Shown here: positions 882 to 21,532 of the stretch, piece by piece
How the letters are laid out: each line of letters begins with the position of its first letter
Numbering within the stretch: the first letter of the stretch is position 1
Virus record (IMG/VR): IMGVR_UViG_3300030098_001954
Coordinates: 1-22,685 of that record
DNA from: a virus
Length of the DNA: 22,685 nucleotides
Reading direction: 5' to 3' (one strand)
The notes under the pieces: model-generated
What the model was told of the DNA's origin: nothing
What the model saw: only the letters and a program-made list of their open reading frames with translations
The model's database searches: none
Translations under genes and position numbers: made by a program

Positions 882-2144
882 ATGGGACTTAAAAGATTTT
901 TTAAAAAAATTACCAAACCAATAGCAAAAGTATTAGACAAAGTCGTACCTAATGAAATTAAACCTTTCTTGCCTTATGCGGCAGCAGCGGTGCCTTTTTT
1001 AGCACCAATGGGAATAGCTTCATCTATGGCTGGTAGAGCATTTTTATCAGGCGGTGCTAATTTATTATCCCAACTATCTCAAGAAGGTAGCGAAGGAGAT
1101 TTTTCCGGACTGTCTGCATTATTAGCAGCAGGTACAGGTGCATTGTCATCACCACAAGCAGCGGGTAAATTAAGAGACTTTCAAACTATAGGAGGGACAC
1201 CTATAAGTGATGTAGCAGTTGAATCAGTTAATATTGGACAAGCAACTGGTTTAGAAGGTTTAAAAAATGTAGGACTTGAAGGTTTAGCTAAAACTTCAGA
1301 AGGAATTGTAGGTGCAAGTAAAATTTTAAAAAATCCTTTTGCAGAAGGTGTTGGATTAAAAGATGTAGGTAAAGCAGCATTCGCACCAATTGCACAAGGA
1401 TCGACAGACCTTGCTATGGCTACAGCTAGAAAAGCTTTAAAAGATTATGAAGATGAATTAGCAGAATATGAAAGATTAACAGGAGAAGCACAGACAGCCT
1501 CTGATGATGCTAGAAGAACAGCTATTAGAGCTGCCATGATTGCAGGTGGTCACTCTGAAGATGTAATTAGTGAAACATTTGATTTATTAGGATTAAAAGA
1601 TGGTGGTAGAGTTGGTCTTAGAGAAGGTGGTGTGTTAGCACAAATACTTCCACAATTTATGGGACGGCCTGCTTTAGAGCCTTTACAACCTGCGCTTGGA
1701 AGTTTTCAACCTTTACAACAAGCTCAAGCTGTTTTTCCTAGACTTAATCAATTAGAACAAGGAGTAAACAGAGCAGAAGAAGATTTAGGAAATATAAGAG
1801 AAAGATTAGGAAATGAATTAAGACAAGTCGTCGGCCTTCAAGGTCAAGTAGGTTTACAACAAACACCATCTGTAAATATGAATTCACTTTTACGAGGTGG
1901 AGGTGACTTGCAAGGTATGAAAGATGGTGGTATAATGGATCTTGGCGGTAAAGAAATGGATCTACGAGGTGGTGGATTCGTGCCAATAGGTAAAAAAGAG
2001 AGAGCGGACGACGTCCCTGCAAGATTAAGCAAAAACGAATTTGTAATGACAGCCGATGCTGTAAGAGCAGCAGGTGGTGGAGATGTTAATAAAGGTGCAA
2101 AGAGAATGTATGAAACAATGAACAGATTAGAGGCAAGAGCATAA
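882..2144 (+). CDS. probable internal virion / DNA-ejection protein with tape-measure-like C-terminal motif, 420 aa
   Basis: The N-terminus is basic (MGLKRFFKKITKPIAKVLDK), followed by a hydrophobic Ala/Pro/Met stretch (about residues 30-60) that could insert into or lie on a membrane. A helical charged part (about 185-215) follows. Residues 240-246 are DGGRVGL, and further Gly-rich pieces (KDGGIMDL, LRGGG) follow. The last 60 residues carry DDVPARLSKNEFVM, which resembles the VPAxLxxxEFVM motif seen near the C-terminus of many tail tape-measure proteins; this protein is much shorter than those. No enzyme motif is visible. There is no clear ribosome site before the ATG. The stop overlaps the next start (TAATG), and the next two genes have similar composition, so an ejection or internal-core set is likely. 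Function is inference. Confidence 0.85.
   Translation: MGLKRFFKKITKPIAKVLDKVVPNEIKPFLPYAAAAVPFLAPMGIASSMAGRAFLSGGANLLSQLSQEGSEGDFSGLSALLAAGTGALSSPQAAGKLRDFQTIGGTPISDVAVESVNIGQATGLEGLKNVGLEGLAKTSEGIVGASKILKNPFAEGVGLKDVGKAAFAPIAQGSTDLAMATARKALKDYEDELAEYERLTGEAQTASDDARRTAIRAAMIAGGHSEDVISETFDLLGLKDGGRVGLREGGVLAQILPQFMGRPALEPLQPALGSFQPLQQAQAVFPRLNQLEQGVNRAEEDLGNIRERLGNELRQVVGLQGQVGLQQTPSVNMNSLLRGGGDLQGMKDGGIMDLGGKEMDLRGGGFVPIGKKERADDVPARLSKNEFVMTADAVRAAGGGDVNKGAKRMYETMNRLEARA
1600..1615 (+). repeat. 16-bp exact repeat, copy 1 (encodes GGRVG)
   Basis: ATGGTGGTAGAGTTGG occurs here and again at 2975-2990, in the same reading phase of two neighbouring genes, encoding the shared (D/N)GGRVG motif. The identity of the bases as well as the residues suggests copying between the two genes or strong codon preference. 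Confidence 0.8.
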
Positions 2145-2887
2145 TGGCTGAAACAACTACGATAACACGACCGGCACCGGTACTAGAAGCATCACTAACT
2201 AATTTTTTAAAAGCAGTAGACCCGTTAGTTGGTCAAAAGATAGATACATCTGCTTACGCACCAACAATTGCTGATGAATCACAACTACAACAAGATGCAA
2301 GAACTGCAGCAGCAGGATTAGATTCATTAGTAGGGCCAGATGCATACAAATCATTTATGTCACCTTATCAACAAGAGGTGATTGATACAACTTTAGCAGA
2401 ATTTGATAGACAACAAGCAATTGCAGATACAGCTCGAAGAGATAGAGCTATACAAGCTGGAGCTTTTGGGGGTGGTAGAGAAGGTGTGCTTGCAGCAGAA
2501 GCAGCAAGAGGTGCAGCACAAAGTAGAGCAGGATTACAAGCACAACTATTAGCACAAGGATTTCAACAAGCACAAGCAGCGGCAGCACAAGATTTAGCTG
2601 CAAGACAAGGTTTAGGTACTTACCAAACACAATTAGGTCAAGCTGGTCAAGCACAACAACAAGCACTTCTAGATGCAGCAGCAGCGGCAGCAAGAGAAGC
2701 ACAATTCGAACCATTCACTAGATTAGGTTTAGTTGGTCAACAACTTGCACAGGTACAACCAGGTGCATTTCCGACTCAAACAGTCGGATATCAACCACCA
2801 GCACCACCAGTCAGTCCATTACAAACTGCATTAGGTGTTGGAACTGGTCTTGCAAGTATTGGTTCTAAACTAGGAATATTTGGCTAA
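2144..2887 (+). CDS. probable internal virion / DNA-ejection protein, Ala/Gln-rich, 247 aa
   Basis: 247 residues. After a Thr/Pro-rich head the chain is almost all helix: SPYQQEVIDTTLAEFDRQ at about 73-90, then GAFGGGREG at about 107-115, then a long Ala/Gln/Leu stretch (about 116-195) that could form coiled coils. The tail is Pro-rich followed by a Gly/Leu/Ile end that may touch membrane. Similar Ala/Gln-rich helical proteins with an 'SPYQQ...V' segment and a 'GAFGG.R' segment recur beside other internal virion proteins in marine podovirus-like phages; an ejected core protein comparable in role to T7 gp14 is a reasonable guess, not demonstrated. ATG overlaps the previous TAA; AGAGG lies at 2129-2133. 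Confidence 0.85.
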   Translation: MAETTTITRPAPVLEASLTNFLKAVDPLVGQKIDTSAYAPTIADESQLQQDARTAAAGLDSLVGPDAYKSFMSPYQQEVIDTTLAEFDRQQAIADTARRDRAIQAGAFGGGREGVLAAEAARGAAQSRAGLQAQLLAQGFQQAQAAAAQDLAARQGLGTYQTQLGQAGQAQQQALLDAAAAAAREAQFEPFTRLGLVGQQLAQVQPGAFPTQTVGYQPPAPPVSPLQTALGVGTGLASIGSKLGIFG

Positions 2888-3996
2888 TGAGTAGAATTTT
2901 AAGAAGACCGATGTTTAGAGGTGGGCCGGTAGATAGCCGCGGCACGGGGATTACATCAAATTTAGGTTATGAAAATGGTGGTAGAGTTGGATACCAAAGT
3001 GCTGGATTTGTAACTGGTCAACAAATTATAGATGCAAATAGAAATAATCCTTTTTTTCAAACTAATACTTTAAATCCTAGATCTAGATTTACATTAGGAC
3101 AAAGCAGAGGTGGTTTAGATAATTTAATTAGAGCTACCATGTTTGATACAGAGCAATTTCCTCTTGTTGGTAAAGAAGCTGGTTTATCTGAGACAGCGTC
3201 TTTAACAGATCTTTACAAAGCTCAAACAGACGATGATGCAGGAGATTTATTAGCAAGCTTAGACACTACATTTACACCAAAAATAAATACAAAAGCAGAA
3301 GCTAGTGAGGGTTCAGTTCCAACTGGAGAAAAAGATGATGATCCTGATCCTGATCCAGATAAAATAGACACTTCACCAAAGCCAGTTCCAACACCTAAAC
3401 CTGGTGATGACGAACCAGAAGTAACTATGACTGATCTTGAAAAAGCTTTAGGATTAGATAGAGCTAGACAAGAGTATGCAGCAGATGCACTGGCTGCAGC
3501 ATCAAAAGCATTCTTTGAAGGCAAAGGTTTTGGTGCGATAGCAGACGCAGCAGCTGTTAAGAGTAAAGCACCAGATATCAAGAGACTTGCAGCACTAGAA
3601 GAATTTAAAGCTGATAGAAGAGAAAAACTTTTTGATAAAAAACAAGATTCTCTTTTAAAACAAAGACAAGGAACTAAAGGAGCTTTTCAAAAAAAATTAG
3701 ACACCATTACAAAACAACCAGAAGGCACTCAAGGACATAAAATTGCATTAATTGAAAACAAACTTCAACCAACCATACAAGGTCAAATTGCATCGGAGAC
3801 TGTGGATAATAATTATACAAGACCAGCTCCTGCTGTGATTATTGGATATATGGATTTATATTATCCTCAATCATATGCGGGAACAGTTGCTGCAGACGCA
3901 GAAATGGCAGGAAAAAAAGCAGGGACTTATATTACAGAAGACGCAACAACTATAATTTTTTGGGACGGAGAAAACGCTAGAACTCAATCAATTTAA
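2887..3996 (+). CDS. probable virion protein with MFRGGPVDSRGTGI head and NGGRVGY motif, 369 aa
   Basis: The N-terminus MSRILRRPMFRGGPVDSRG is basic and Gly-rich, with NGGRVGY at residues 30-36. I associate this head with several virion-region proteins of marine phages. Residues about 130-180 are an acidic, Pro-rich linker containing a run of Asp-Pro dipeptides coded by tandem GATCC(T/A) units near 3338-3361. After it comes a helical Ala/Lys-rich part (about 185-275), then a smaller mixed region ending in DATTIIFWDGENARTQSI. No catalytic motif is visible. The layout of a Gly-rich head, flexible acidic linker and helical body suits a structural or ejection protein. The start overlaps the previous stop by one base. 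Confidence 0.85.
   Translation: MSRILRRPMFRGGPVDSRGTGITSNLGYENGGRVGYQSAGFVTGQQIIDANRNNPFFQTNTLNPRSRFTLGQSRGGLDNLIRATMFDTEQFPLVGKEAGLSETASLTDLYKAQTDDDAGDLLASLDTTFTPKINTKAEASEGSVPTGEKDDDPDPDPDKIDTSPKPVPTPKPGDDEPEVTMTDLEKALGLDRARQEYAADALAAASKAFFEGKGFGAIADAAAVKSKAPDIKRLAALEEFKADRREKLFDKKQDSLLKQRQGTKGAFQKKLDTITKQPEGTQGHKIALIENKLQPTIQGQIASETVDNNYTRPAPAVIIGYMDLYYPQSYAGTVAADAEMAGKKAGTYITEDATTIIFWDGENARTQSI
2975..2990 (+). repeat. 16-bp exact repeat, copy 2 (encodes GGRVG)
   Basis: Second copy of ATGGTGGTAGAGTTGG; see the copy at 1600-1615. It encodes the NGGRVG motif near the N-terminus of the 369-residue protein. Confidence 0.8.
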
Positions 3997-8529: not shown

Positions 8530-8732
8530 CGGCACATACATCCTATAAGAGAACCTGTTCCATCTTTCATTATGTGAAGATTTAAAGCATCAACATATCC
8601 TGTTAATTTTAATCTTAAAATTTCACACACATCAAAACAATCAACATGACTTGTCAAAACTACACCATCTAACAATTTTTTTGTTACTGGTATCAGATGA
8701 TATATTCCATCATTTAATATTATTAAATCCAT
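8526..8732 (-). CDS. hypothetical protein, 68 aa, last gene of leftward unit
   Basis: 68 residues starting MDLIILNDGIYHLIPVTKKL. The gene follows the oxygenase with a one-base overlap (TAATG on the minus strand), so it is probably translated by re-initiation; no separate ribosome site is visible. The sequence is mixed alpha/beta, with Cys32, Cys36, Cys65 and Cys67 and no membrane span. I do not recognise a family. Its stop codon overlaps that of the converging peptidase gene across the palindromic TTAA at 8526-8529. Confidence 0.7.
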   Translation of the reverse strand: MDLIILNDGIYHLIPVTKKLLDGVVLTSHVDCFDVCEILRLKLTGYVDALNLHIMKDGTGSLIGCMCR

Positions 8733-9265
8733 TAAAATAATACCGGTTCTAAAAGAAAATCAAAAGACAAGATTCTTTTTTTAAAATTTATTTTATTTGG
8801 TTCTGTGTAGTGTGTAAGAAATTGTGGAACTATCATCATGTCGCCCTCTTTAACTTGTGGTGTATATAACACACTTCTGTCTTCTTCACTATTCCATGGC
8901 TGTATGTATGTGGTTTTGGGTGAGTCTGGTTTCATATCAAGATATAATATACCAGCGTACCCTTGGGAGCTGTGATTGTGTGGAACATGATAGTGTCCCT
9001 TGTGATATACAACCGACCAGACTCTTTGCAATAATATCTTAGAATTAAACTTTGCTCTTATCAGACTAAACTCATCCTTAAATATATCTCTAAATTCTGT
9101 AGTAATACTACATTTATCTCTATTACTATAAAAATTAAGACGAGGCATCTCTGGATATCTAGCCAAAGTTTTTTCTAATTTTTTCTTTTTGTTTTTAAAA
9201 TCAATACACTTAATTTTAAAAAATTCTATTTTAAATACAGGTTCTATTTCGTATTTTATATCCAT
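8732..9265 (-). CDS. putative 2OG-Fe(II) oxygenase (PF13759/TIGR02466-like), 177 aa
   Basis: The second half shows a double-stranded beta-helix oxygenase pattern: YHKGHYHVPHNHSS with His96 and His98 as iron-ligand candidates, GYAGILYLD at 102-110, TYIQPW at 119-124, EGDMMIVPQFLTHYTEPN with the distal ligand His152, and KKRILSFDF with Arg164 placed to hold 2-oxoglutarate. This matches the 'putative 2OG-Fe(II) oxygenase' family common in marine phages, whose substrate is generally unknown. The N-terminal 70 residues are basic and charged. Length is normal for the family. It overlaps the upstream helicase gene by ten bases, so the two are co-expressed. A protein, nucleotide or DNA substrate are all possible; this sequence does not decide. 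Confidence 0.85.
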   Translation of the reverse strand: MDIKYEIEPVFKIEFFKIKCIDFKNKKKKLEKTLARYPEMPRLNFYSNRDKCSITTEFRDIFKDEFSLIRAKFNSKILLQRVWSVVYHKGHYHVPHNHSSQGYAGILYLDMKPDSPKTTYIQPWNSEEDRSVLYTPQVKEGDMMIVPQFLTHYTEPNKINFKKRILSFDFLLEPVLF

Positions 9266-10689
9266 TCTCTTAACTCTTCACCCATGATTTCTGTTGCAAT
9301 ATTCATTTTTTTACGTAGTGCTTTTACTATTTTTTCATCTACCGTTTTTGGTGTTATAAAATCCACATACGTCACTGATTTTTTTTGACCTATTCTATGT
9401 GCACGATCCTCTGATTGTAATCTTTTCTCTAGATCATAGCCATTAGAATAGTAGATAACATTATTGGCAGCTGTCAGTGTTATACCATAACCACCTGTCT
9501 GTGGATTACCTACAAAAAATCTTGCATCGGAGTTTGGATCTTGAAATCTTTCAATATTTTTTTGCCTAACATCTGCCTGAATTGCGCCATAATATTGTAC
9601 TATAGAGTCTTCTCCAAATTTTTTAGATATGGCTTTGACTATCTGTTGAATGTCATACACATAATTAGCCCAAATAATTACTTTACCCTCTACTTCCTCT
9701 AAAACATCAAGTAATTCAACCATTCTGTTATTTTTTATTTCTGTAATTGTATCGTCATCATTCTTTAAATGACCACAAGTAATCTGATGTAGACGCATAA
9801 GTTGTGTTAATACGTGGGGTGCGGTAGCCATCTTGCCTTTTAGTTGAGCGAGGGCCGCGGATTTCATTGTGGCATAAATGTGTCTTTGTTCGTCTGACAA
9901 TTCTACTTCTCTTTGTATGTATACTTTTTCTGGTAGATCCAAACAATCTTCTTTTAATACTCTGTAAGAAAATTTTTTAAGAGAGTCAGATAATTCATCT
10001 AATCTTTTATAACCACCTACGATCTGAACTCTACGACCACCAAAATTTCTATCTATCATTGTGGCATATCTATTTCTAAATGTGTAATAAGAATTAAATC
10101 CAAGTAATTCTTCGTGTAAAAAATTACATTGTGTATACAAATCTAGCGGTGATTTAGTAACCGGTGAACCTGTAAGTATCCTTCTATACTTTGCAAGTTT
10201 ACCTAAACTTAAAATAGCTTTTGTTCTTTTTGCTGTTGGTGTTTTAATTGATGTAGATTCATCAACAGCCATGATTGCTTTGTGGCAATTAAGAAACTTT
10301 GTGGCAAATTCTAGGCCTTTTTTAGTCGAAAATGCTTCTACATTCATGACAAGGATGTGAAGGTCGTAGTCTATCTTAAACAATTGTTGATACTCTTTAT
10401 CCTTTGCTTTGGATGTAGTAGCAGTCCATAATATCGTTTTGTGATCTATATGGCTAGGTAAATGATTTGGTATTTCTTGAGAAAACCAGTTTCTATATAC
10501 ACCCTTTGGTGCTATAATTAATGCCGAATTTATTTTGCCTTTATCATAAAGCATAGCGATATTATCAACTAACACTTTAGATTTACCTGTACCCATCTCC
10601 ATAAAATATCCATACTCTTCTTTGTTCCAAGATTTTTCTAGAGCAGTAACTTGATGCTCATATGGCTTTGTTTTAAATTTATAATTCAT
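9256..10689 (-). CDS. SNF2-family SF2 DNA helicase / translocase, 477 aa
   Basis: This has a full SF2 helicase core: PYEHQ Q-motif-like region at 9-13, Walker A EMGTGKS at 31-37, motif Ia IIAPKGVYRNW near 58-68, Walker B variant DEST at 143-146, motif III TGSP at 173-176, motifs IV and V in the second lobe (IIWANY; GITLTAANNVIYY), and motif VI QSEDRAHRIGQ at 425-435. The DEST box and 'RAHRIGQ' are diagnostic of the SNF2 group. About 477 residues is the compact phage form with no extra reader or DNA-binding domain. It probably moves on duplex DNA, remodelling protein-DNA complexes or aiding replication or recombination. It is the first gene of the leftward unit and faces the divergent promoter region. 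Confidence 0.95.
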   Translation of the reverse strand: MNYKFKTKPYEHQVTALEKSWNKEEYGYFMEMGTGKSKVLVDNIAMLYDKGKINSALIIAPKGVYRNWFSQEIPNHLPSHIDHKTILWTATTSKAKDKEYQQLFKIDYDLHILVMNVEAFSTKKGLEFATKFLNCHKAIMAVDESTSIKTPTAKRTKAILSLGKLAKYRRILTGSPVTKSPLDLYTQCNFLHEELLGFNSYYTFRNRYATMIDRNFGGRRVQIVGGYKRLDELSDSLKKFSYRVLKEDCLDLPEKVYIQREVELSDEQRHIYATMKSAALAQLKGKMATAPHVLTQLMRLHQITCGHLKNDDDTITEIKNNRMVELLDVLEEVEGKVIIWANYVYDIQQIVKAISKKFGEDSIVQYYGAIQADVRQKNIERFQDPNSDARFFVGNPQTGGYGITLTAANNVIYYSNGYDLEKRLQSEDRAHRIGQKKSVTYVDFITPKTVDEKIVKALRKKMNIATEIMGEELREWI

Positions 10690-10751: not shown

Positions 10752-11150
10752 ATGAAAAACAAAATATTTGAATTGTATAAACCAAATTCTTTAACAGAGT
10801 TTTTAGATTTTAATAAAAACAACCCTGAAGAGAGATTTGTTTATGTAGTTCAACAACCAGCTCCTAATATAAATATATTAAGTGCATCTGATTTTGGTTA
10901 CCTTGTAATATGTTTGCCTAATAGAGATCAGGCTATATTATCTACTGCACCTTATGTGCAAAAGATGAAAAAAAATTTACAAGATTTTAGAAAGCAAGAT
11001 TACTTGCTTGCTGTGGGAGATCCTGTTATTATAGGTATATCTACTGCAGCTGTGAGTGAGGTAACTTCAGGTCAGTTTAATATTTTAAAGTGGGACAAAC
11101 GAGAATATAGATACTATCCACTTGAAGTAGATATGTATCAGAAAGGATAA
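10752..11150 (+). CDS. hypothetical phage protein, first gene of replication operon, 132 aa
   Basis: 132 residues beginning MKNKIFELYKPNSLTEFLDF. It is mixed alpha/beta with several short hydrophobic strands (FGYLVICLP, DPVIIGIS) and no Cys or membrane span. The name-giving features of known DNA-binding or enzyme families are absent, and I do not recognise it. As the first gene behind the strong divergent promoter it is probably among the earliest proteins made. The ATG is about 18-20 bases after the -10 region, so the leader is very short; the ribosome site is weak (purines AAGAA). The stop TAA at 11148-11150 directly abuts the next ATG. Confidence 0.85.
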   Translation: MKNKIFELYKPNSLTEFLDFNKNNPEERFVYVVQQPAPNINILSASDFGYLVICLPNRDQAILSTAPYVQKMKKNLQDFRKQDYLLAVGDPVIIGISTAAVSEVTSGQFNILKWDKREYRYYPLEVDMYQKG

Positions 11151-11759
11151 ATGAGTATAAAACAAAAAGTAAAAATTAAAACTTTTACAGGTAGTGGATC
11201 TTTCGACATTAGAGATGAAATGATTAATGATTCAAAAGATTTTTTAGATACGGTTGAAGTTACAACAATTGCACAAGAGTGTGTAAATTTAAAAAAAGTA
11301 GAAGATGATATAGCTGCAATAGAGGAGCAGTTGAAAAAGAAAAAAGAAGAAGCTGATCATATCAGTTCAAAAATAATTCCAGAACTATTAGCAGAACAAG
11401 GATTGTCAGAAATTAAATTAGCTGATGGTTCTAAAGTTTCTGTTAAAAAAGAATTTAGGGCAACTCTTCCAAAAGATGAAGTAAAAAGAGATGCTGCCTA
11501 CCAATGGCTTCGAGATCAAGGGTTAGGAGATATTATTAAAAACAATGTCTCGGTAACATTTGGTAAAGGAGAAGATGACAAGGCCAAATCTTTGATTGAC
11601 CTTGCGGTTGCTAATGGTTACGAGCCAAGTCAGAAATCTGATGTAGCTTGGAATACATTAACAGCCCTGTATGAGGAGCGTGTCAAGGCCGGCCTTGACA
11701 TGCCTTCTGATGTTTTTAGTCTATGGATTAAAGACAAAACTAAAATAAGTCGGAAATAA
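11151..11759 (+). CDS. coiled-coil hypothetical phage protein, 202 aa
   Basis: The protein has an N-terminal leader rich in Asp and Thr, then a charged heptad-like helix at about residues 45-76 (VNLKKVEDDIAAIEEQLKKK and on), predicted as a coiled coil. A small globular part follows, containing ADGSKVSVKKEFRATLPKD and YQWLRDQGLGDIIKNNV. The pairing of coiled coil and 'G-x-x-D-I-I-K' domain occurs in phage proteins encoded near recombination or replication genes, but I know no proven function. There are no Cys pairs and no membrane span. The start directly follows the preceding stop with AAAGGA just upstream. The neighbour downstream is a possible ssDNA-binding-like protein. Confidence 0.85.
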   Translation: MSIKQKVKIKTFTGSGSFDIRDEMINDSKDFLDTVEVTTIAQECVNLKKVEDDIAAIEEQLKKKKEEADHISSKIIPELLAEQGLSEIKLADGSKVSVKKEFRATLPKDEVKRDAAYQWLRDQGLGDIIKNNVSVTFGKGEDDKAKSLIDLAVANGYEPSQKSDVAWNTLTALYEERVKAGLDMPSDVFSLWIKDKTKISRK

Positions 11760-11778
11760 CAACAAAGGATAAAGAAAA

Positions 11779-12546
11779 ATGAGTAAAGAAGTAATGAAAA
11801 AAGGATCGGGATCAGTAGCCTTGTTTGCAGAAGACGTGGCAACAGGTTTTGATAACATGACGCAAGATGATCTTGCGTTGCCTTATGTCAGAATCTTGGG
11901 TCAGTTATCGGCACAAGTGAATGAGGGGGATGGTAAATACATCGAAGGCGCTAAGCCTGGGATGATTTATAATAATGTTACCCATGAAATTTTTGATGGG
12001 AAGAAAGGTATTAAGGTGGTGCCTTGTTATTATAAAAAAGACTATCCAGAAAAAAGCGACAAAGGAGATGGGAATCCACTAACGGTGGCTACTCACCTAC
12101 CTAATAGTCCAATAATTAAAACAGGTAAGAGAGAGGGTGCTAAGATAAGATTGCCAAATGGTAATTATCTTGAGGAGACTGCTTATTACTATGTTTTAAT
12201 GGAAACAAAAGCAGGTGGTATGACACCAGCGTTGATTACTATGAAATCATCGCAGCTTTCTGTCAGCAAAAATTGGAATTCTATGATGAAGACCATACAA
12301 ATTGAGGACGGAAAAGGTGGCTTTGTTACACCACCAATGCATGCAGTTGTGTATAACTTGTCGTCAGCAATACAAAAGAACGATAAAGGTTCTTGGTATG
12401 GCTGGTCAATTACACAAGACCGAATTATGGGACAAGAGGACAAAGGATTGTACAAAAGTGCAAAAGAATTTGCTTCTAGTGTCTCGGACGGAACCGTGCA
12501 AGCAAAAGCTGATGTGGAAGAGAAGTCGGATAGTACACCATACTAA
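11779..12546 (+). CDS. conserved phage protein, possible ssDNA-binding-like replication accessory, 255 aa
   Basis: 255 residues. The N-terminal motif FDNMTQDDLALPYVRILGQL is followed by a beta-rich core (IKVVPCYYKKDY, AYYYVLMET, PALITMKSSQLSVSKNWNSM) and a disordered, acidic C-terminal tail (about 225-255) ending DSTPY. A beta-rich core with an acidic tail, encoded just before the primase, resembles phage ssDNA-binding proteins, but no OB-fold signature can be confirmed by eye. The start has AAAGGA about ten bases upstream. Base composition is richer in G+C than the flanking genes. A strong hairpin follows the stop. The role is inference from composition and neighbours. Confidence 0.85.
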   Translation: MSKEVMKKGSGSVALFAEDVATGFDNMTQDDLALPYVRILGQLSAQVNEGDGKYIEGAKPGMIYNNVTHEIFDGKKGIKVVPCYYKKDYPEKSDKGDGNPLTVATHLPNSPIIKTGKREGAKIRLPNGNYLEETAYYYVLMETKAGGMTPALITMKSSQLSVSKNWNSMMKTIQIEDGKGGFVTPPMHAVVYNLSSAIQKNDKGSWYGWSITQDRIMGQEDKGLYKSAKEFASSVSDGTVQAKADVEEKSDSTPY

Positions 12547-12553
12547 CCAAAAT

Positions 12554-12575
12554 GGGAGGATCGTAAGATCCTCCC
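12554..12575. terminator. perfect 9-bp hairpin with GTAA (GNRA) loop: weak terminator, attenuator or mRNA stabiliser
   Basis: GGGAGGATC at 12554-12562 pairs exactly with GATCCTCCC at 12567-12575 around the loop GTAA, a GNRA-type tetraloop. Only three T residues follow, so full intrinsic termination is doubtful. It lies between the 255-residue gene and the primase ATG at 12594, and could make the first genes more abundant than the primase. Confidence 0.7.
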
Positions 12576-12593
12576 TTTACAAAGAAAAAAGAA

Positions 12594-14126
12594 ATGATAA
12601 TAAAAAAAGATAAATTCAAAAATATATTTAGCGGATTAACAATAGCTTATGGACAATATCAACCAGGTGAACGTGGCGAAAACGGAAAGCAACAAGGAAA
12701 AGCTTTTATTGTACGTGGTGCCGTCACAGAAGAACTCTGGGAAAATCACCTCACAGGAAAAGGACCAGCACTGGGAATCATCCCTATTACGGAGAGCAAT
12801 GATTGTAGGTGGGGGTGCATTGATATCGATGAATATAATTTTGATCATCTTAGCCTCATTAAAAACATTCGGTCTAATAAACTCCCTTTAATAGTCTGCC
12901 GTAGTAAATCAGGCGGAGCACACGTTTTTTTATTTACCAAAGAAAATATACCTGCATCTTTGATGCAATCAAAATTAAAATCTATGGCCACCATATTAGG
13001 TTATGAAGGGTCAGAAATATTTCCAAAACAAACAGAAATACTAGTGGATCGTGGGGACACTGGTAATTTTTTAAACTTACCCTACTACAATGAGATGAAA
13101 GGACTACGTTATGCTATCAACGATAATGGCACCAGTTGTACACTTCAGGAATTTTTTGAGCTCCATGATGTTCATGCGCTCACAAAAGAACAAGTCGAAG
13201 CGATTAAAACGGAAGAAAAAAAAATAGAGGAAGCGTTTCCTGGAGGACCACCTTGTCTAAACAAACTTGCAACAACAGGATTTGGACAAGGTTCTAGAAA
13301 TAATGCTTTGTTTAATATTGCAGTATATTACAAACAATCTGCACCGGATACATGGGAAGATAAAATTGTAGAGGCTAATCTAAAATATATGGATCCAACA
13401 CTTAGTAATAGTGAAGTTCAACAATTAATTAAATCTGTAAATAGAAAAGGCTATGATAGATATAGATGTAAAGATTCACCTATTAACGCTGTTTGTCAAT
13501 CTGGTTTATGTAGAACAAAAAGATTTGGTGTGGGATTTGGTGAAGAAGAGATGCCCATGTTAGGTAGTCTTACAAAGTATTCATCAAAACCACCAGAGTG
13601 GTTTTTAGATGTGGATAAAAAAAGAATACAATTAAAATCAGAGCAACTTTATAGTCCGCAACTATTTGCATTGGCATGTCTTGATCAGGCTAATCTTGTT
13701 GTGCCTGTACCAAAACCAAAAGATTGGAAACAACATTTTTTAAAACCTATGATGCAAGGTTTGCAAGAAGTAGAACCTTTAGAATCTTTAGATCCAGTAA
13801 ATGAGTTAACAGGATTACTCCAAGATTGGACAACAAACAGACAATCAGCAAGAACTTTTGATGATATATTAAATAAACTACCATACACAGATGAGAAAAG
13901 AGAATTTACATATTTTAGAATGGAAGATTTTTATAATTTTTGTAAACGAAATCATTGGGAGAAAGATAAAAATCAAACAGGTAATTTAATAAAACAATTA
14001 AGTGTGTTTGTAGATGAGGAGAGAATGAGAATTAAAAAACAACAACCTAGATTAATTAAAATAAAAACTATGAAACAAGTGGAGGCTAGTGTTACAAAAG
14101 AACCTTACCAAGAGGAGCATTTTTAG
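12594..14126 (+). CDS. AEP-superfamily DNA primase (TOTE-type), 510 aa
   Basis: The archaeo-eukaryotic primase pattern is clear: IDIDE at 76-80 gives the metal ligands Asp77 and Asp79, CRSKSGGAHVFLF at 102-114 holds the nucleotide-binding SGGAH with His110, and GNFLNLPYYN at 157-166 closes the catalytic core. After it comes GQGSRNNALFNIAVYYKQ (231-248), typical of the C-terminal (PriCT-like) helical part, and a Cys cluster (Cys292, Cys301, Cys306) in RCKDSPINAVCQSGLC that may bind zinc. Residues 320-510 are helical with no recognised helicase motif. It should make primers for the PolA replisome. The ATG lacks a clear ribosome site and lies 19 bases after a strong hairpin. The stop overlaps the next GTG. 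Confidence 0.9.
   Translation: MIIKKDKFKNIFSGLTIAYGQYQPGERGENGKQQGKAFIVRGAVTEELWENHLTGKGPALGIIPITESNDCRWGCIDIDEYNFDHLSLIKNIRSNKLPLIVCRSKSGGAHVFLFTKENIPASLMQSKLKSMATILGYEGSEIFPKQTEILVDRGDTGNFLNLPYYNEMKGLRYAINDNGTSCTLQEFFELHDVHALTKEQVEAIKTEEKKIEEAFPGGPPCLNKLATTGFGQGSRNNALFNIAVYYKQSAPDTWEDKIVEANLKYMDPTLSNSEVQQLIKSVNRKGYDRYRCKDSPINAVCQSGLCRTKRFGVGFGEEEMPMLGSLTKYSSKPPEWFLDVDKKRIQLKSEQLYSPQLFALACLDQANLVVPVPKPKDWKQHFLKPMMQGLQEVEPLESLDPVNELTGLLQDWTTNRQSARTFDDILNKLPYTDEKREFTYFRMEDFYNFCKRNHWEKDKNQTGNLIKQLSVFVDEERMRIKKQQPRLIKIKTMKQVEASVTKEPYQEEHF
14112..14117 (+). promoter_or_regulatory. Shine-Dalgarno site fixing a GTG start
   Basis: GAGGAG lies eight bases before GTG 14126, which overlaps the primase TAG. 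This favours the GTG over the later in-frame ATG at 14141. Confidence 0.7.
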
Positions 14127-14512
14127 TGAGAGACGATTTGATGGTACAGCAACAGGTCAAAAGCATATGGCAGCACATGGTTGGTGTCATCTGTTTAAAC
14201 AAGACCAGACGTGAGAAAGTCAAGAAGATGTTGCCAGCCTTCTTCGAAGAGTTTCCAACAGCGATACATTTATTACAATCGGATAGAGACAAGATAGCAG
14301 AGATGCTGAAAGACTTAGGCATGAAACACGTCAGGGCCAACAGGCTGTGGAGGATGTCGGAAGATTATCTCGGTTGGGACGGCAAGGACGCAACAGAATT
14401 ATTTGGTATCGGCAAGTATGGCAGCGATAGCTATAGGATATTTTATAAGAATGAGATACCGGACAACATACAAGATAGCGAACTAAAAAGATATGTAAAG
14501 GAGGAGATGTGA
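14126..14512 (+). CDS. MBD4-like HhH-GPD DNA glycosylase (probable G:T / G:U mismatch repair), 128 aa
   Basis: The chain follows the catalytic domain of vertebrate MBD4, as I remember that sequence, almost end to end. [20 protein letters not shown] matches its [41 protein letters not shown] matches [36 protein letters not shown] (93-106) matches HGIGKYGNDSYRIF, the helix-hairpin-helix; IQDSELKRY (115-123) matches PEDHKLNKY and keeps the catalytic Asp (Asp117). No iron-sulphur Cys cluster and no methyl-CpG domain are present. It should remove thymine or uracil opposite guanine. It is coupled to primase (GTG overlapping TAG) and helicase (overlap of four bases). G+C is about 43% by hand count, against about 22-27% in samples of the flanking genes. 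Confidence 0.85.
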   Translation: [128 protein letters not shown]

Positions 14513-16017
14513 AAACAATAATACTTGGTCCACCTGGTACAGGTAAGACCACAACTTTATTAAATTTAGTAGATGAATTTATACAAGATGGAATTAGACC
14601 AAAACAAATAGGTTATTTCTCATTTACGAAGAAAGCTGCCACAGAAGCAGCTACAAGAGCGTCTGAAAAATTTGGATTAGACATAGAAAATGATTTACCC
14701 TTTTTTAGAACTTTACATTCTTATGCTTTTAATCAATTAGGTATGACTAAAGAAAAAATGATGAAGACAGAAGACTACAAAGAGTTTGGTGAAAAGTGTG
14801 GCATACCAATTAAATCTACAAAATTTTCTGACAACGATGGCACATTCAACTCTGATAATGAATATCTTACAATTATAAATACAGCTATTGTAAAACGAAT
14901 GGATTTATTAGAATACTATGATTCTCGTCAAAACATATTAGACATAGAAAGAAATACGTTATTTTTATTATCAGAAGAATTAAAAAGATTTAAAAAAGAA
15001 AAAGGATTAAAAGATTTTAACGATCTCATAGAGGATTTTTTAAAAAAAGAAACTATAAATAAGTTTAAGGTATTGTTTATTGACGAGGCACAAGATTTAT
15101 CTTTGCTGCAGTGGGAGATGGTGAGAAAAATTTGGAGTCGTGCAGAAAAAACTTATATTGCAGGAGACGATGATCAAGCAATATTTAAGTGGGCAGGTGC
15201 AGACGTAGATCACTTTATTGCGTTGAAAGAAGAAGTAGATGACATACAAACATTAGATCAATCGTATAGGATTCCTGGTGGACCTATACATGAATTATCA
15301 CAAAAAATAATTAATCAAGTTCAAAATAGATTTGATAAAGATTATCAACCTAGAGAGGAGCATGGTGTATTAAAAAGATACTCTGACATTACACAAGTAG
15401 ATATGTCGGCAGGTAATTGGTTAGTGTTATCTTCTGCAAATCATTTTTTAGATTCTGTAAAAGAAGTGTGTGAACTTCGGGGCTGGTATTATCAATACAA
15501 AGGTAGAAATTCTATCCCATTAAAATTATTATTAGCACTAAATAATTGGGAAGCATGGCGTAAAGGTGGACTATTAAATCATTTAGAGATAAAAAATATT
15601 TATGAATATTTAGGATCAAATGTATTAGAAGGTTTTAGAAAAGGTAAAACATTACATTCTGATGATAAGTATACTTTACAAGAGTGTAAAGATAATCATG
15701 GTTTGATAGTTGATTTAGTCTGGTACGAAGCATTTGAAGGATTAGATCCTATCACAGAAAACTACATTCGTAATATGCGGGCGAATGGAGAACAGATAAA
15801 TAAAAATCCGCGTATTATTATGTCAACAATACATGGAGCGAAAGGAGGAGAAGCTGACAAAGTTTTACTAATGCAAGACATCACAAACGCAGCACTTGAA
15901 ACAATGAGTTATGATCCAGATGAGTTACATAGATTATTTTATACTGGAGCGACGAGAGCGAAACGCGAATTGCATGTTTTGGACCCAAGAGATTTTGATC
16001 GAGCTTATATACTATGA
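14509..16017 (+). CDS. SF1 UvrD/Rep-type DNA helicase, 502 aa
   Basis: The SF1A motifs run in order: Walker A GPPGTGKTT at 7-15, FSFTKKAA at 38-45 (Ia), RTLHSYAF at 67-74, Walker B VLFIDEAQD at 188-196, GDDDQAIFKWAGA at 219-231 (III), QSYR at 251-254 (IV), STIHGAKGGEAD at 439-450 (V) and YTGATRA at 478-484 (VI). At about 500 residues it is smaller than UvrD and closer in size to Dda-like phage helicases. It probably unwinds 3'-5' during replication, recombination or repair. The start is GTG 14509 overlapping the glycosylase stop, with AGGAGG at 14499-14504. It is the only canonical unwinding helicase in the operon. The stop overlaps the next ATG (ATGA). Confidence 0.95.
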   Translation: MKTIILGPPGTGKTTTLLNLVDEFIQDGIRPKQIGYFSFTKKAATEAATRASEKFGLDIENDLPFFRTLHSYAFNQLGMTKEKMMKTEDYKEFGEKCGIPIKSTKFSDNDGTFNSDNEYLTIINTAIVKRMDLLEYYDSRQNILDIERNTLFLLSEELKRFKKEKGLKDFNDLIEDFLKKETINKFKVLFIDEAQDLSLLQWEMVRKIWSRAEKTYIAGDDDQAIFKWAGADVDHFIALKEEVDDIQTLDQSYRIPGGPIHELSQKIINQVQNRFDKDYQPREEHGVLKRYSDITQVDMSAGNWLVLSSANHFLDSVKEVCELRGWYYQYKGRNSIPLKLLLALNNWEAWRKGGLLNHLEIKNIYEYLGSNVLEGFRKGKTLHSDDKYTLQECKDNHGLIVDLVWYEAFEGLDPITENYIRNMRANGEQINKNPRIIMSTIHGAKGGEADKVLLMQDITNAALETMSYDPDELHRLFYTGATRAKRELHVLDPRDFDRAYIL

Positions 16018-16253
16018 CACACAAAGATATATTTAAAGGATCTACATATGATTCATTAGAAAAGCAGGTAGGTGGGAAGCACTATCGAAACATGAAGATT
16101 CAGCCAGCACACTTTATAAACGAAAACAAGTTGCTTTTTGCAGAAGGCAACGCTATAAAGTATATTTGTAGACACCAGTCAAAAGGAAAAGAGGAAGATG
16201 TGAAGAAGGCAATTCATTATTTAGAAATGATATTAGAGAGAGATTATTCGTGA
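16014..16253 (+). CDS. DUF3310 family protein (T7 gp1.7 nucleotide-kinase related), 79 aa
   Basis: The whole DUF3310 (PF11753) signature is present: KQVGGKHYRNMKIQPAHFI at 17-35, FAEGNAIKYICRHQSKGKEE at 42-61 and DVKKAIHYLEMIL at 62-74. The family includes the small nucleotide kinase gp1.7 of phage T7, whose product phosphorylates dGMP and dTMP, but T7 gp1.7 is much longer and only part of it is shared, so an enzymatic role here is uncertain. Such genes often sit next to phage DNA polymerases, as here. The ATG overlaps the helicase TGA by four bases and the stop overlaps the polymerase GTG (GTGA). Confidence 0.9.
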   Translation: MTHKDIFKGSTYDSLEKQVGGKHYRNMKIQPAHFINENKLLFAEGNAIKYICRHQSKGKEEDVKKAIHYLEMILERDYS

Positions 16254-18112
16254 GAAGCACTCAAATACCTTTGTTCACTCCTGAAACAGAATGGGTGATG
16301 CCAGAAGAATTAAAAGATCTTCATGGCTACAAAGAAATAGCAATAGATTTAGAGACTAATGACCCACATCTTTTAGAACTTGGATCAGGTAATGTTACCG
16401 GTAGAGGGCACATTGCTGGCATTGCGGTGGCCGTAGAGGGCTGGTCAGGCTATTTTCCGATACATCATGAGTCTGGTGGAAATATGGATAAAAAATTGGT
16501 CCTATCCTGGCTACAAGATATTTGTAATCAAGAAGAAACTAAATTTATATTTCATAACGCCATGTATGACATCTGTTGGTTGAGATCTGCTGGTGTGATT
16601 GTAAAAGGTAAAATAATTGACACGATGATTGCAGCATCTTTAATAGATGAAAATAGATTGTCTTACCAATTAAATTTTTTATCTAAACATTATGTGGGTT
16701 TTGGTAAAGATGAAAGTATTTTAAACGCAGCTGCAAAAGAATATGGATTAGATCCTAAAAAAGATTTGTGGAGACTACCTGCATTGTTTGTAGGCCAGTA
16801 TGCTGAGCGTGATGCAGAATCTACATTAAAGCTTTGGAAAAAACTGGAAACAGAATTATACCAGCAAGAGCTCTGGGACATATTTAATTTAGAGACTAGA
16901 TTATTTCCTTGTCTAGTTGACATGAGATTCAAAGGTGTCAGAGTCGATCTTGATAAAGCTGACAAAATTAAAAAATATTTAATAGATAAAGAGAATAAAA
17001 TTCTTAAAGATATCAAAGACTTAACAGGAATTGACGTAGAGATACATGCAGCTAGGAGTATTGCAAAGGCATTTGATAAATTAAAGTTGCCTTATGACAG
17101 AACAGAAAAAAGTAAAGAACCATCTTTTACAAAAAATTTTTTACAAAACCATCCACACCAACTACCCAAAGCAATAGCAGAGGCACGAGAACTCAACAAA
17201 GCTCATGGCACATTTATAGATTCAATAACTAAACATTCAGTCAATAGTAGAATACATGCAGATATAAATCAGATAAGATCAGATGCGGGAGGGACGGTAA
17301 CCGGTAGATTCAGTATGTCTAATCCAAATCTACAGCAGATACCAGCAAGACATCCAGAACTTGGACCTTTAATTAGATCTATATTTATTCCAGAAGAGAA
17401 TCATACGTGGGGATCATTTGATTACTCACAACAGGAACCTAGAATATTAGTGCACTATGCAAAACTACAAAATTTAAATGGTGTTGATGAAATTGTAGAT
17501 GCATACAAAGCAGGTGATGCAGATTTCCACCAGGTTGTTGCAGACATGGCAGGGATCGAACGTAAACAAGCCAAAACAATTAATCTTGGATTGATGTATG
17601 GTATGGGTAAAAATAAATTAATGGCAGAACTAGGACTGATGAAAGATTCTGCAGAAAAATTGATAAAACAATATCACATTAAAGCCCCTTTTGTAAAACA
17701 ATTAATGGATAATGTATCTCGCAAAGCAAATGATCGTGGTAAAATTAGAACTTTACTTGGTCGAGCCTGTCATTTTGATTTGTGGCAGCCGGTGCAGTTT
17801 GGTGTTTTTAAGCCATTACCATTAGAACAAGCTAGAAAAGAATATGATGAGCCACTTAAACGTGCATTTACCTATAAAGCACTCAATAAATTAATACAAG
17901 GAAGTGCAGCAGATATGACAAAAAAATCTATGGTAGCTCTTTATGAAAGTGGTATAATACCACACATACAGATTCATGATGAAGTAGATATTTCTGTTGA
18001 GTCTGATGAAAAAGCAGAGGAAATAATTGAGATTATGGAATCTGCAGTTAAGTTAAAAGTACCAAACAAGGTTGATTATGAAAAAGGAAAAAATTGGGGA
18101 GATATTAAGTAG
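16250..18112 (+). CDS. polA: family A DNA polymerase with 3'-5' exonuclease, 620 aa
   Basis: The proofreading exonuclease is complete: AIDLET with Asp33/Glu35, FHNAMYD with Asn103/Asp107, and YAERD with Tyr184/Asp188. The polymerase has TGRFSMSNPNLQQIP (351-365), motif A DYSQQEPRIL with Asp391, motif B with Arg438, Lys442, Leu446 and Tyr450, and motif C HDEVD at 577-581. Leu446 stands where E. coli Pol I has Phe762; phages carry Phe, Tyr or Leu there, and Leu has been linked to slower or temperate replication styles. Gln395 and Pro397 flank the motif A Glu where Pol I has Ile and Leu. There is no 5'-3' exonuclease domain. The start is GTG 16250 (GTGA overlap), with an AGAGAGAG purine tract before it. 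It is the replicative polymerase of this phage. Confidence 0.96.
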   Translation: MRSTQIPLFTPETEWVMPEELKDLHGYKEIAIDLETNDPHLLELGSGNVTGRGHIAGIAVAVEGWSGYFPIHHESGGNMDKKLVLSWLQDICNQEETKFIFHNAMYDICWLRSAGVIVKGKIIDTMIAASLIDENRLSYQLNFLSKHYVGFGKDESILNAAAKEYGLDPKKDLWRLPALFVGQYAERDAESTLKLWKKLETELYQQELWDIFNLETRLFPCLVDMRFKGVRVDLDKADKIKKYLIDKENKILKDIKDLTGIDVEIHAARSIAKAFDKLKLPYDRTEKSKEPSFTKNFLQNHPHQLPKAIAEARELNKAHGTFIDSITKHSVNSRIHADINQIRSDAGGTVTGRFSMSNPNLQQIPARHPELGPLIRSIFIPEENHTWGSFDYSQQEPRILVHYAKLQNLNGVDEIVDAYKAGDADFHQVVADMAGIERKQAKTINLGLMYGMGKNKLMAELGLMKDSAEKLIKQYHIKAPFVKQLMDNVSRKANDRGKIRTLLGRACHFDLWQPVQFGVFKPLPLEQARKEYDEPLKRAFTYKALNKLIQGSAADMTKKSMVALYESGIIPHIQIHDEVDISVESDEKAEEIIEIMESAVKLKVPNKVDYEKGKNWGDIK

Positions 18113-20940: not shown

Positions 20941-21092
20941 AAAACCCTGTGGCCAAGCAATTGAGAACACCAAAATTTAGAAGTAAGAAAATAGAATCTA
21001 AAAAGAAATATAACAGAAAAAAAAGAGAGATCGTTGGTTATTATTATGACTACGATGGTAAAGAGCAGATTTTATATGAGGATAAAAGATAA
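20937..21092 (+). CDS. small basic phage protein, 51 aa
   Basis: The start is GTG 20937, overlapping the previous TGA (GTGA), with GAGG at 20928-20931. MKNPVAKQLRTPKFRSKKIE and KKKYNRKKR make a very basic N-terminal half; the rest is VGYYYDYDGKEQILYEDKR. The 'KNPVAK..RTP..R' and 'YNRK' pieces recur in marine phage small proteins. Charge suggests nucleic-acid binding. TAA overlaps the next ATG. Confidence 0.78.
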   Translation: MKNPVAKQLRTPKFRSKKIESKKKYNRKKREIVGYYYDYDGKEQILYEDKR

Positions 21093-21532
21093 TGATTCCA
21101 GAAACAGATAGAGCATATATCGCAGGACTTTTTGATGGTGAGGGTTGTGTCACTTACAAACAATACATGCGTAAAAGAAAAGGACAGAAGAAAGCATATC
21201 CCACCTGGTCCATCAGAATGGAGATAAACATGACAGATAAATCGTTATTGACATGGGTGCACGAGGTGTTGGGTGTTGGCACCGTTGGTGAGAAAAGACA
21301 CTATAGTAAATATGCTCTGGGTTGGAAAAGACAATGGCGTTGGCGTTGTCAATTTAGGGATGCATACTTTGTATCTTGTCTGATATGGCCCTGGTCTCAC
21401 ACAAAACTAGAGAAGATCCAACAGATAATAAAACATTATGATCCTGGGACATGCGGAACCTACGATGGATTTAAAATGAATGGCAAAGTAATAGATCTAC
21501 AAACCTATAAAAAAATGATGAGTTTAGAATGA
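21092..21532 (+). CDS. LAGLIDADG-family homing endonuclease, single motif, 146 aa
   Basis: AYIAGLFDGEGCVTY at 8-22 is a LAGLIDADG helix with the acidic Asp15/Glu17 near its end. One motif and 146 residues imply a homodimer. The rest shows alternating strands and basic residues (IRMEINMTDKSL; YALGWKRQWRWRCQF) as in the DNA-binding saddle. No intron or intein boundary is visible, so it is free-standing. G+C is about 41% in sampled stretches, above the local level, which suits a mobile gene. ATG overlaps the previous TAA; stop overlaps the next ATG. Confidence 0.88.
   Translation: MIPETDRAYIAGLFDGEGCVTYKQYMRKRKGQKKAYPTWSIRMEINMTDKSLLTWVHEVLGVGTVGEKRHYSKYALGWKRQWRWRCQFRDAYFVSCLIWPWSHTKLEKIQQIIKHYDPGTCGTYDGFKMNGKVIDLQTYKKMMSLE

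Follow-up and report, generated by a model that had tools for sequence, protein, structure and literature searches.

The question posed by this locus is what a small open reading frame (ORF), overlapping both the primase gene before it and the helicase gene behind it, encodes, and what use a phage could make of its product. The window (the whole stretch of DNA analysed, 22,685 bases) is an entire virus record, which is itself probably a fragment of a genome. The original prediction placed a compact MBD4-like mismatch DNA glycosylase gene between those of primase and helicase, and an ORF of 128 amino acids with a GTG start was found there (14126..14512, plus strand), encoding an MBD4-type HhH-GPD DNA glycosylase and overlapping both neighbours. 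The primase gene (12594..14126, plus strand; AEP-TOTE primase domain and PriCT-1 by Pfam; phrog_21866) ends in a TAG that overlaps the GTG by one base (14126..14126). The gene that follows encodes an SF1 DNA helicase of the UvrD/Rep type (14509..16017, plus strand; Pfam; phrog_1967), and here its start GTG at 14509 and the glycosylase stop TGA (14510-14512) overlap in the four bases GTGA (14509..14512, plus strand, read by eye). The sequence AAGGAGGAG just 5' of this overlap, also read by eye, could be a ribosome-binding site for the helicase. Genes for a DUF3310 protein (16014..16253) and a family A DNA polymerase with a 3'-5' exonuclease domain (16250..18112) lie downstream and one for a Pam3 gp34-like protein (11779..12546) upstream of the primase, all on the plus strand and identified by Pfam. 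The gene order is Pam3-type genes (10752-12546), AEP-type primase, glycosylase, UvrD-type helicase, DUF3310 and family A polymerase. On the opposite strand, genes for a SNF2-type helicase (9256-10689, minus strand) and a 2OG-Fe(II) oxygenase (8732-9265, minus strand) were observed.

In the phage collection the closest relative by DNA was a seawater phage, 023Pt_psg01 (81.5% across 28% of the window, 83% in the primase), which has primase and helicase genes with no annotated gene between them. Two Pelagibacter phages in the same collection matched the window DNA weakly. The setting is called marine on the basis of 023Pt_psg01, these Pelagibacter phage matches and the Red Sea cyanophage S-TIM54, discussed below.

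The protein was matched by the Pfam family PF00730 (HhH-GPD) at an E-value of 7.5e-7 with 29.9 bits, passing the gathering score of 26.2. When PDB chains were searched with phmmer, MBD4 accounted for all of the best 15 sequences (9e-17 to 6.6e-16), followed by endonuclease III (EndoIII; 3.9e-5) and Mig (2.4e-3). A 33-row family profile searched against the PDB gave MBD4 at 1.8e-22, EndoIII at 1.2e-7 and Mig at 1.9e-7. The HMM search proposed for this family thus returned HhH-GPD in Pfam and MBD4 as the best PDB match, and the best stretch (residues 12-123) bears out the claim that the likeness to the MBD4 catalytic domain runs along nearly the full length. Identification of the ORF as EndoIII, MutY or Mig was rejected, as these score lower and the protein has neither the Lys nor the FeS cluster. 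At 23.4 bits the NCBIfam model nth stayed far under its cut-off (211.7), as mutY did under its own. No match to the glycosylase was found among PHROG families at E-values up to 1, and none of its Pfam matches up to the same value belonged to the uracil-DNA glycosylase (UDG) superfamily. Weak PADLOC matches were seen to REase_II ("type II nicking endonuclease", 221 positions; 2.6e-4, 18.7 bits) and Cas2_II (0.028); the nicking-endonuclease profile is perhaps that of a mismatch glycosylase of restriction systems under a different name.

The predicted structure agrees with these assignments. The AlphaFold model, for which the family alignment served as input, has a pLDDT of 95.9 and a pTM of 0.90, and MBD4 entries occupied ranks 1 to 16 in Foldseek. 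By VIA-align the MBD4 structures scored Z 18.2-19.1, the top match (19.1) having an rmsd of 1.6 Å over 125 aligned residues, while other folds reached up to 15.0 (EndoIII), 14.8 (Mig) and up to 13.1 (MutY). The comparison with the MBD4 catalytic domain suggested at the outset therefore gave an HhH-Asp fold, with MBD4 as the closest solved structure. The ORF is confirmed to encode a protein of the HhH-GPD class, with the catalytic domain of MBD4 as its best match among solved structures, and the original family call proved right by Pfam, PDB and fold matches. The fitting name is "MBD4-type catalytic domain" and not MBD4 itself. As had been stated, there is no methyl-CpG domain, since the glycosylase fold fills the whole 128-residue protein.

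The residues expected of such an enzyme could be placed by alignment. Human MBD4 maps onto the protein as Q8=Gln449, K26=Arg468, M66=Leu508, Y98=Tyr540 and D117=Asp560, and one offset fits all. Gln449 and Tyr540 (here Q8 and Y98) have roles in MBD4 as well. The 14-residue stretch on which the prediction had drawn aligns with HGIGKYGNDSYRIF of MBD4, and in the PDB alignment D117 falls on the Asp of HPEDHKL. The proposal of D117 as the catalytic Asp held up: it corresponds to Asp560 of MBD4 and is found in every one of the 114 aligned rows (113 distinct proteins). Y98 is likewise present in all 114 rows and Q8 in 113, the remaining row having a gap. The HhH motif (L92, G94-I95-G96, followed by D117) is also complete in 114/114 rows, and could be aligned to that of EndoIII-like rows and of MBD4. 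The rows comprise loci found by patterns in conserved stretches together with the best 80 of each scan, and the near-invariance of LMVQQQ (Q8), WQHMV and ELFGIGKY (Y98) is therefore partly built in by the search patterns; D117 lies outside every pattern used. The intercalating Arg468 and Leu508 of MBD4 are not kept, being replaced by K26 and M66 (numbering and roles of Arg468, Leu508 and Asp560 according to PMC5406665). Position 26 is Gln in 104/114 rows, with Lys in the window protein, and position 66 is Met in 105/114, the window protein included.

Two further class features can be read from the protein. Eight cellular rows that appeared EndoIII-like by eye have Lys in the Y98 column, and as Tyr98 replaces the Lys of EndoIII a monofunctional enzyme is predicted. 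The only cysteine in the whole glycosylase is C23, which makes a 4Fe-4S cluster impossible and agrees with the earlier statement that no FeS cluster is present.

The gene belongs to a sizeable viral family. When viral contigs (IMG/VR) were scanned with the single protein, 149 pattern stretches were obtained, each of them coding for a relative, and a scan with the alignment gave at least 535 relatives from at least 600 pattern stretches. Among 50,697 phage records there were five matches, namely S-TIM54 (55% identity) and four records of two Xanthomonas/Stenotrophomonas phages (27-28% identity, E 4e-3); 023Pt_psg01 is not one of the five. The median dN/dS was 0.111 and the 95th percentile 0.193 (1510 pairs with pS 0.1-0.6 from 138 loci, near-copies retained), and the family is under purifying selection.

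A common cellular gene taken from hosts is not supported as a source, since a pattern scan of 84,980 cellular genomes (genome_contigs) gave 66 pattern matches and only four close relatives. Two of these four loci, L085 and L086, lie on contigs that look viral by eye; L087, from Candidatus Actinomarina, has the gene amid seemingly ordinary chromosomal genes (by eye), and L088 is the fourth. Profile searches covered the family of L087's Actinomarina, with a close relative in 1 of 42 genomes, and the phylum Neomarinimicrobiota, with one in 1 of 245, in each case the one already known. The latter search gave four further matches, ORFs of 217-229 amino acids (E 1.1e-12 to 6.7e-11). In a tree of 28 rows (14 of them family rows) three of these cluster with EndoIII-like rows and the other, L228, with two others; the branches of human MBD4 and of phage AXL_1 are long and their placement is not settled. 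Some family rows, L017 and L085 among them, are missing from the tree, identical proteins being stored under other locus names. L085 itself is a 335-kb contig binned as Neomarinimicrobiota with the look of a large phage, in which the glycosylase starts 346 bases past an ATP-dependent DNA ligase gene. In L086, binned as Euryarchaeota, the glycosylase adjoins genes resembling the 7-deazaguanine (queuosine/archaeosine-type) pathway and phage replication genes (by eye; 1834-3312 and 12373-13951), no Pfam match being found for 1834-3312; this contig is probably a mis-binned virus.

The position of the gene varies considerably. For 132 loci (longest-ORF gene calling; duplicates L081, L089, L090 and L092 dropped, other near-identical contigs kept) the slot was defined by the nearest recognised gene within four ORFs on each side. 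The slots were primase/helicase (30), helicase/DUF3310 (23), exonuclease/terminase small subunit (21), GP88/phrog_47 primase (13), exonuclease/unrecognised (12), gp34/primase, with the glycosylase between a gp34-like gene and the primase (5), SNF2/unrecognised (3) and other/unrecognised (25). In 112 of the 132, at least one of the two flanking genes so defined was a primase, helicase or exonuclease. The glycosylase gene was thus seen in six or more slots, belonging to no fewer than three kinds of gene block, which are an AEP primase with a UvrD helicase, a phrog_47 primase with a DnaB-like helicase, and a phrog_298 exonuclease by a terminase small subunit.

At the primase-helicase junction itself, both gene ends could be placed in 78 contigs with a relative of the window's helicase, the window itself counted. 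The glycosylase is present in four of them, which are the window, L137 (the contig of L001), L002 and L021, and absent from the other 74 junctions, where 7 direct overlaps and 67 intervals of 93-282 bases holding something else were found. This junction is a hot spot for small genes. The most informative relative is L138, with a helicase 98.6% and a primase 96.3% identical to those of the window and no glycosylase, the primase stop and helicase start overlapping in TAATG. When the two were aligned the difference was the ORF itself, with both couplings kept, and in the other gene-less relatives listed with directly adjoining genes the primase stop overlaps the helicase start as in L138. No family member was found in the whole L138 record (10,346 bases). 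The profile, which does find its targets in the Actinomarina and Neomarinimicrobiota genomes, gave no match in any of 20 complete records of helicase relatives, chosen from the longer ones among the 76 helicase-scan records without the gene. The clean stop/start junction of gene-less L138 indicates that the glycosylase is a one-gene cassette, gained or lost. The clade of the window is not very young, given its large dS values (0.6 to 1.2, window against L002-L005) and its occurrence in three slots (primase/helicase in the window and L002, helicase/DUF3310 in L004, and after SNF2 in L003 and L005).

The base composition of the gene is also distinct. Its G+C content is 43.2%, matching the predicted 43%, compared with 33.9% for the primase gene and 31.7% for the helicase gene. 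The values of 22-27% originally given for the neighbours were too low, and every 500-base stretch of the window has a G+C content of at least 28.0%. The contrast is nevertheless real and is strongest at third codon positions, where G+C (GC3) is 0.55 in the glycosylase, 0.21 in the primase and 0.20 in the helicase. Over 124 loci (only the duplicate L081 dropped) the glycosylase exceeded core genes in GC3 in 109, with a mean difference of 0.073. Small neighbouring ORFs also exceeded core genes (68/104, mean 0.036), so part of the excess is a small-gene effect. The window's own clade is the extreme of this excess, which suggests that its glycosylase came from a less AT-rich genome. The separate origin that had been proposed is thus supported by the GC3 contrast and by a close relative without the gene at a clean junction. 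No rise in helicase GC3 accompanies the gene in the closest pair (0.203 in the window, 0.211 in L138), and the suggested guarding against C-to-T drift has left no visible compositional mark in this comparison. Averaged over the 59 loci that carry the gene, helicase GC3 was 0.242, compared with 0.227 over the 77 that lack it, two sets which differ greatly in relatedness.

With regard to function, we consider it probable that the gene encodes a minimal monofunctional MBD4-type mismatch glycosylase which repairs deaminated C or 5-methylcytosine (5mC) in phage DNA, with predicted activity, substrate and purpose. This reading is supported by the family assignment, the predicted fold, the conserved residues and the purifying selection, as well as by the varied slots and the linkage to genes of replication and recombination. 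The lack of UDG-superfamily and dUTPase genes in the records with the family (see below) would leave a gap which such an enzyme could fill. The scant methyltransferases (see below), the lack of a rise in helicase GC3 and the 74 of 78 junctions without the gene were counted against it. On its residues and model the product is most likely a monofunctional T/U:G glycosylase. It would flip T, U or a 5-substituted uracil opposite G out of the duplex, with K26 and M66 filling the gap left by the base, and D117 would assist in breaking the glycosidic bond to leave an abasic site. With Tyr and not Lys at position 98 the enzyme would not be expected to cut the strand itself, and the rest of the repair would fall to the AP endonuclease, polymerase and ligase of the host (or to the phage polymerase). 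Being produced alongside primase, helicase and polymerase A, the glycosylase would most likely repair deaminated cytosine or 5mC while phage DNA is replicated. Substrate preference may differ from that of MBD4, given that Arg468 is K26 here and Gln in 104/114 rows.

The role could instead be mainly that of a uracil-DNA glycosylase acting on U:G (perhaps U:A), which replaces a missing Ung and keeps out uracil, 5mC being irrelevant. No UDG-superfamily gene was found in 42 of 42 records with the family and no dUTPase in 40 of 40, and a cytosine-C5 methyltransferase was present in just 4 of the 42 (two of the four having been included for possessing one), all of which speak for this reading. These records are mostly fragments, however, and the absences are accordingly weak. 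Furthermore, hosts usually possess Ung, and MBD4, the closest relative of known activity, excises T as well as U; a role confined to uracil is therefore judged unlikely. The same methyltransferase count does not support a 5mC methyltransferase as the general partner of the glycosylase.

Attack rather than repair, in which modified or deaminated bases of host or competing-phage DNA (e.g., uracil or hydroxymethyluracil genomes) are excised, would suit the accessory distribution of the gene (4/78 primase-helicase junctions) and its different slots in different phages. Bacteria turning DNA glycosylases on phages have been described in PMC13160076 and PMC11078745. Linkage of the gene to replication and recombination genes and the weakness of the PADLOC matches argue against attack. 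MBD4-type enzymes act on G mismatches and are not known to act on normally paired modified bases, and we regard attack as quite unlikely. On a broader view, a large family of phage MBD4-type glycosylases would move as one-gene cassettes from one stop/start junction to another across different replication blocks, and would serve as weapon or shield, not in ordinary repair, where modified or deaminated DNA is contested and the host or a rival phage is the target. This seems improbable; we infer the ocean as the place where the cassette moves. Loss of catalysis, leaving a DNA-binding or replication-associated structural protein, might be read from the departure of K26 and M66 from the wedge residues of MBD4, but this is very improbable in view of the Asp and Tyr98 kept in 114/114 rows, Gln8 in 113 with one gap, and a dN/dS of 0.11.

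Among known proteins the catalytic domain of human and mouse MBD4 (MED1) is closest in both sequence (9e-17; 1.8e-22 by profile) and fold (Z 19.1), with the Gln, Tyr and Asp positions common to both. The phage protein differs in lacking the methyl-CpG-binding domain, in being 32-34% identical, in having Lys (Gln in most relatives) for Arg468 and Met for Leu508, and in its gene lying in a replication operon. MBD4-type mismatch glycosylases occur in vertebrates, insects and plants, where they are guardians against 5mC deamination. The Mig thymine-DNA glycosylase of Methanothermobacter (1kea) and EndoIII share the HhH-GPD fold (Z 14.8 and up to 15.0, respectively), but are larger and contain an FeS cluster, and EndoIII has its catalytic Lys at the position of Tyr98. 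Predicted viral structures gave a single match with an E-value no higher than 0.001, to U5KBB0 from Clostera anastomosis granulovirus A (an HhH-GPD protein; 38% identity, E 6.5e-7, rmsd 1.6 Å), which differs in coming from an insect virus and in having 245 amino acids. The S-TIM54 protein UYE97365.1 is annotated as hypothetical and belongs to the same close family (55% identical), its gene lying among small ORFs downstream of a helicase gene, although the 180-kb cyanophage has a higher G+C content. The ENDO3c protein of Stenotrophomonas phage AXL_1 is of the HhH-GPD type and has both GKYASDS and the catalytic Asp, while genes for DNA polymerase I and a helicase lie nearby; it differs in its low identity (27-28%, E 4e-3), long branch, 70% G+C gene and neighbouring thymidylate synthase and dCMP deaminase genes. 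The match in Xanthomonas phage DoCa6 is also HhH-GPD-type (27-28% identical, E 4e-3).

In the open-licence literature, no phage MBD4-type enzyme appeared in titles or the starts of abstracts among the matches listed. PMC11288001 concerns a T4 endonuclease V type enzyme, and a passage of PMC10160649 gives a "DNA glycosylase", its family not named, in almost all magrovirus genomes. The kind of enzyme is thus known, and it is the stand-alone, widespread and mobile phage branch that is absent from those titles and abstract starts among the matches listed. An MBD4-type catalytic module standing alone in 128 residues is common in viral contigs and had no PHROG match. As a minimal MBD4-type enzyme it should express easily and would allow a direct test of phage investment in cytosine-deamination repair, and closely related phages with and without the gene are a natural pair for asking its function.

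Several minor observations concern the surroundings of the family. C5-cytosine methyltransferase genes share a contig with the glycosylase in L007, L020, L112 and L115, which makes these the phages in which to seek a role linked to methylation. Contigs from the IMG sets 3300030xxx made up 65 of the 80 with the closest glycosylases and 16 of the 80 with relatives of the window helicase (by eye), and all four helicase-scan contigs with the glycosylase fall among those 16. In L003, L005 and L056 the glycosylase lies directly 3' of a gene of cluster c30, the start of which resembles that of the SNF2 gene of the window (by eye). Finally, a LAGLIDADG endonuclease gene was detected in the window (21092-21532, plus strand; PF00961, 26.9 bits against 23.1), and in 12 exonuclease/terminase-type loci LAGLIDADG-like ORFs (by eye, cluster c17) were seen three to four ORFs 5' of the glycosylase.
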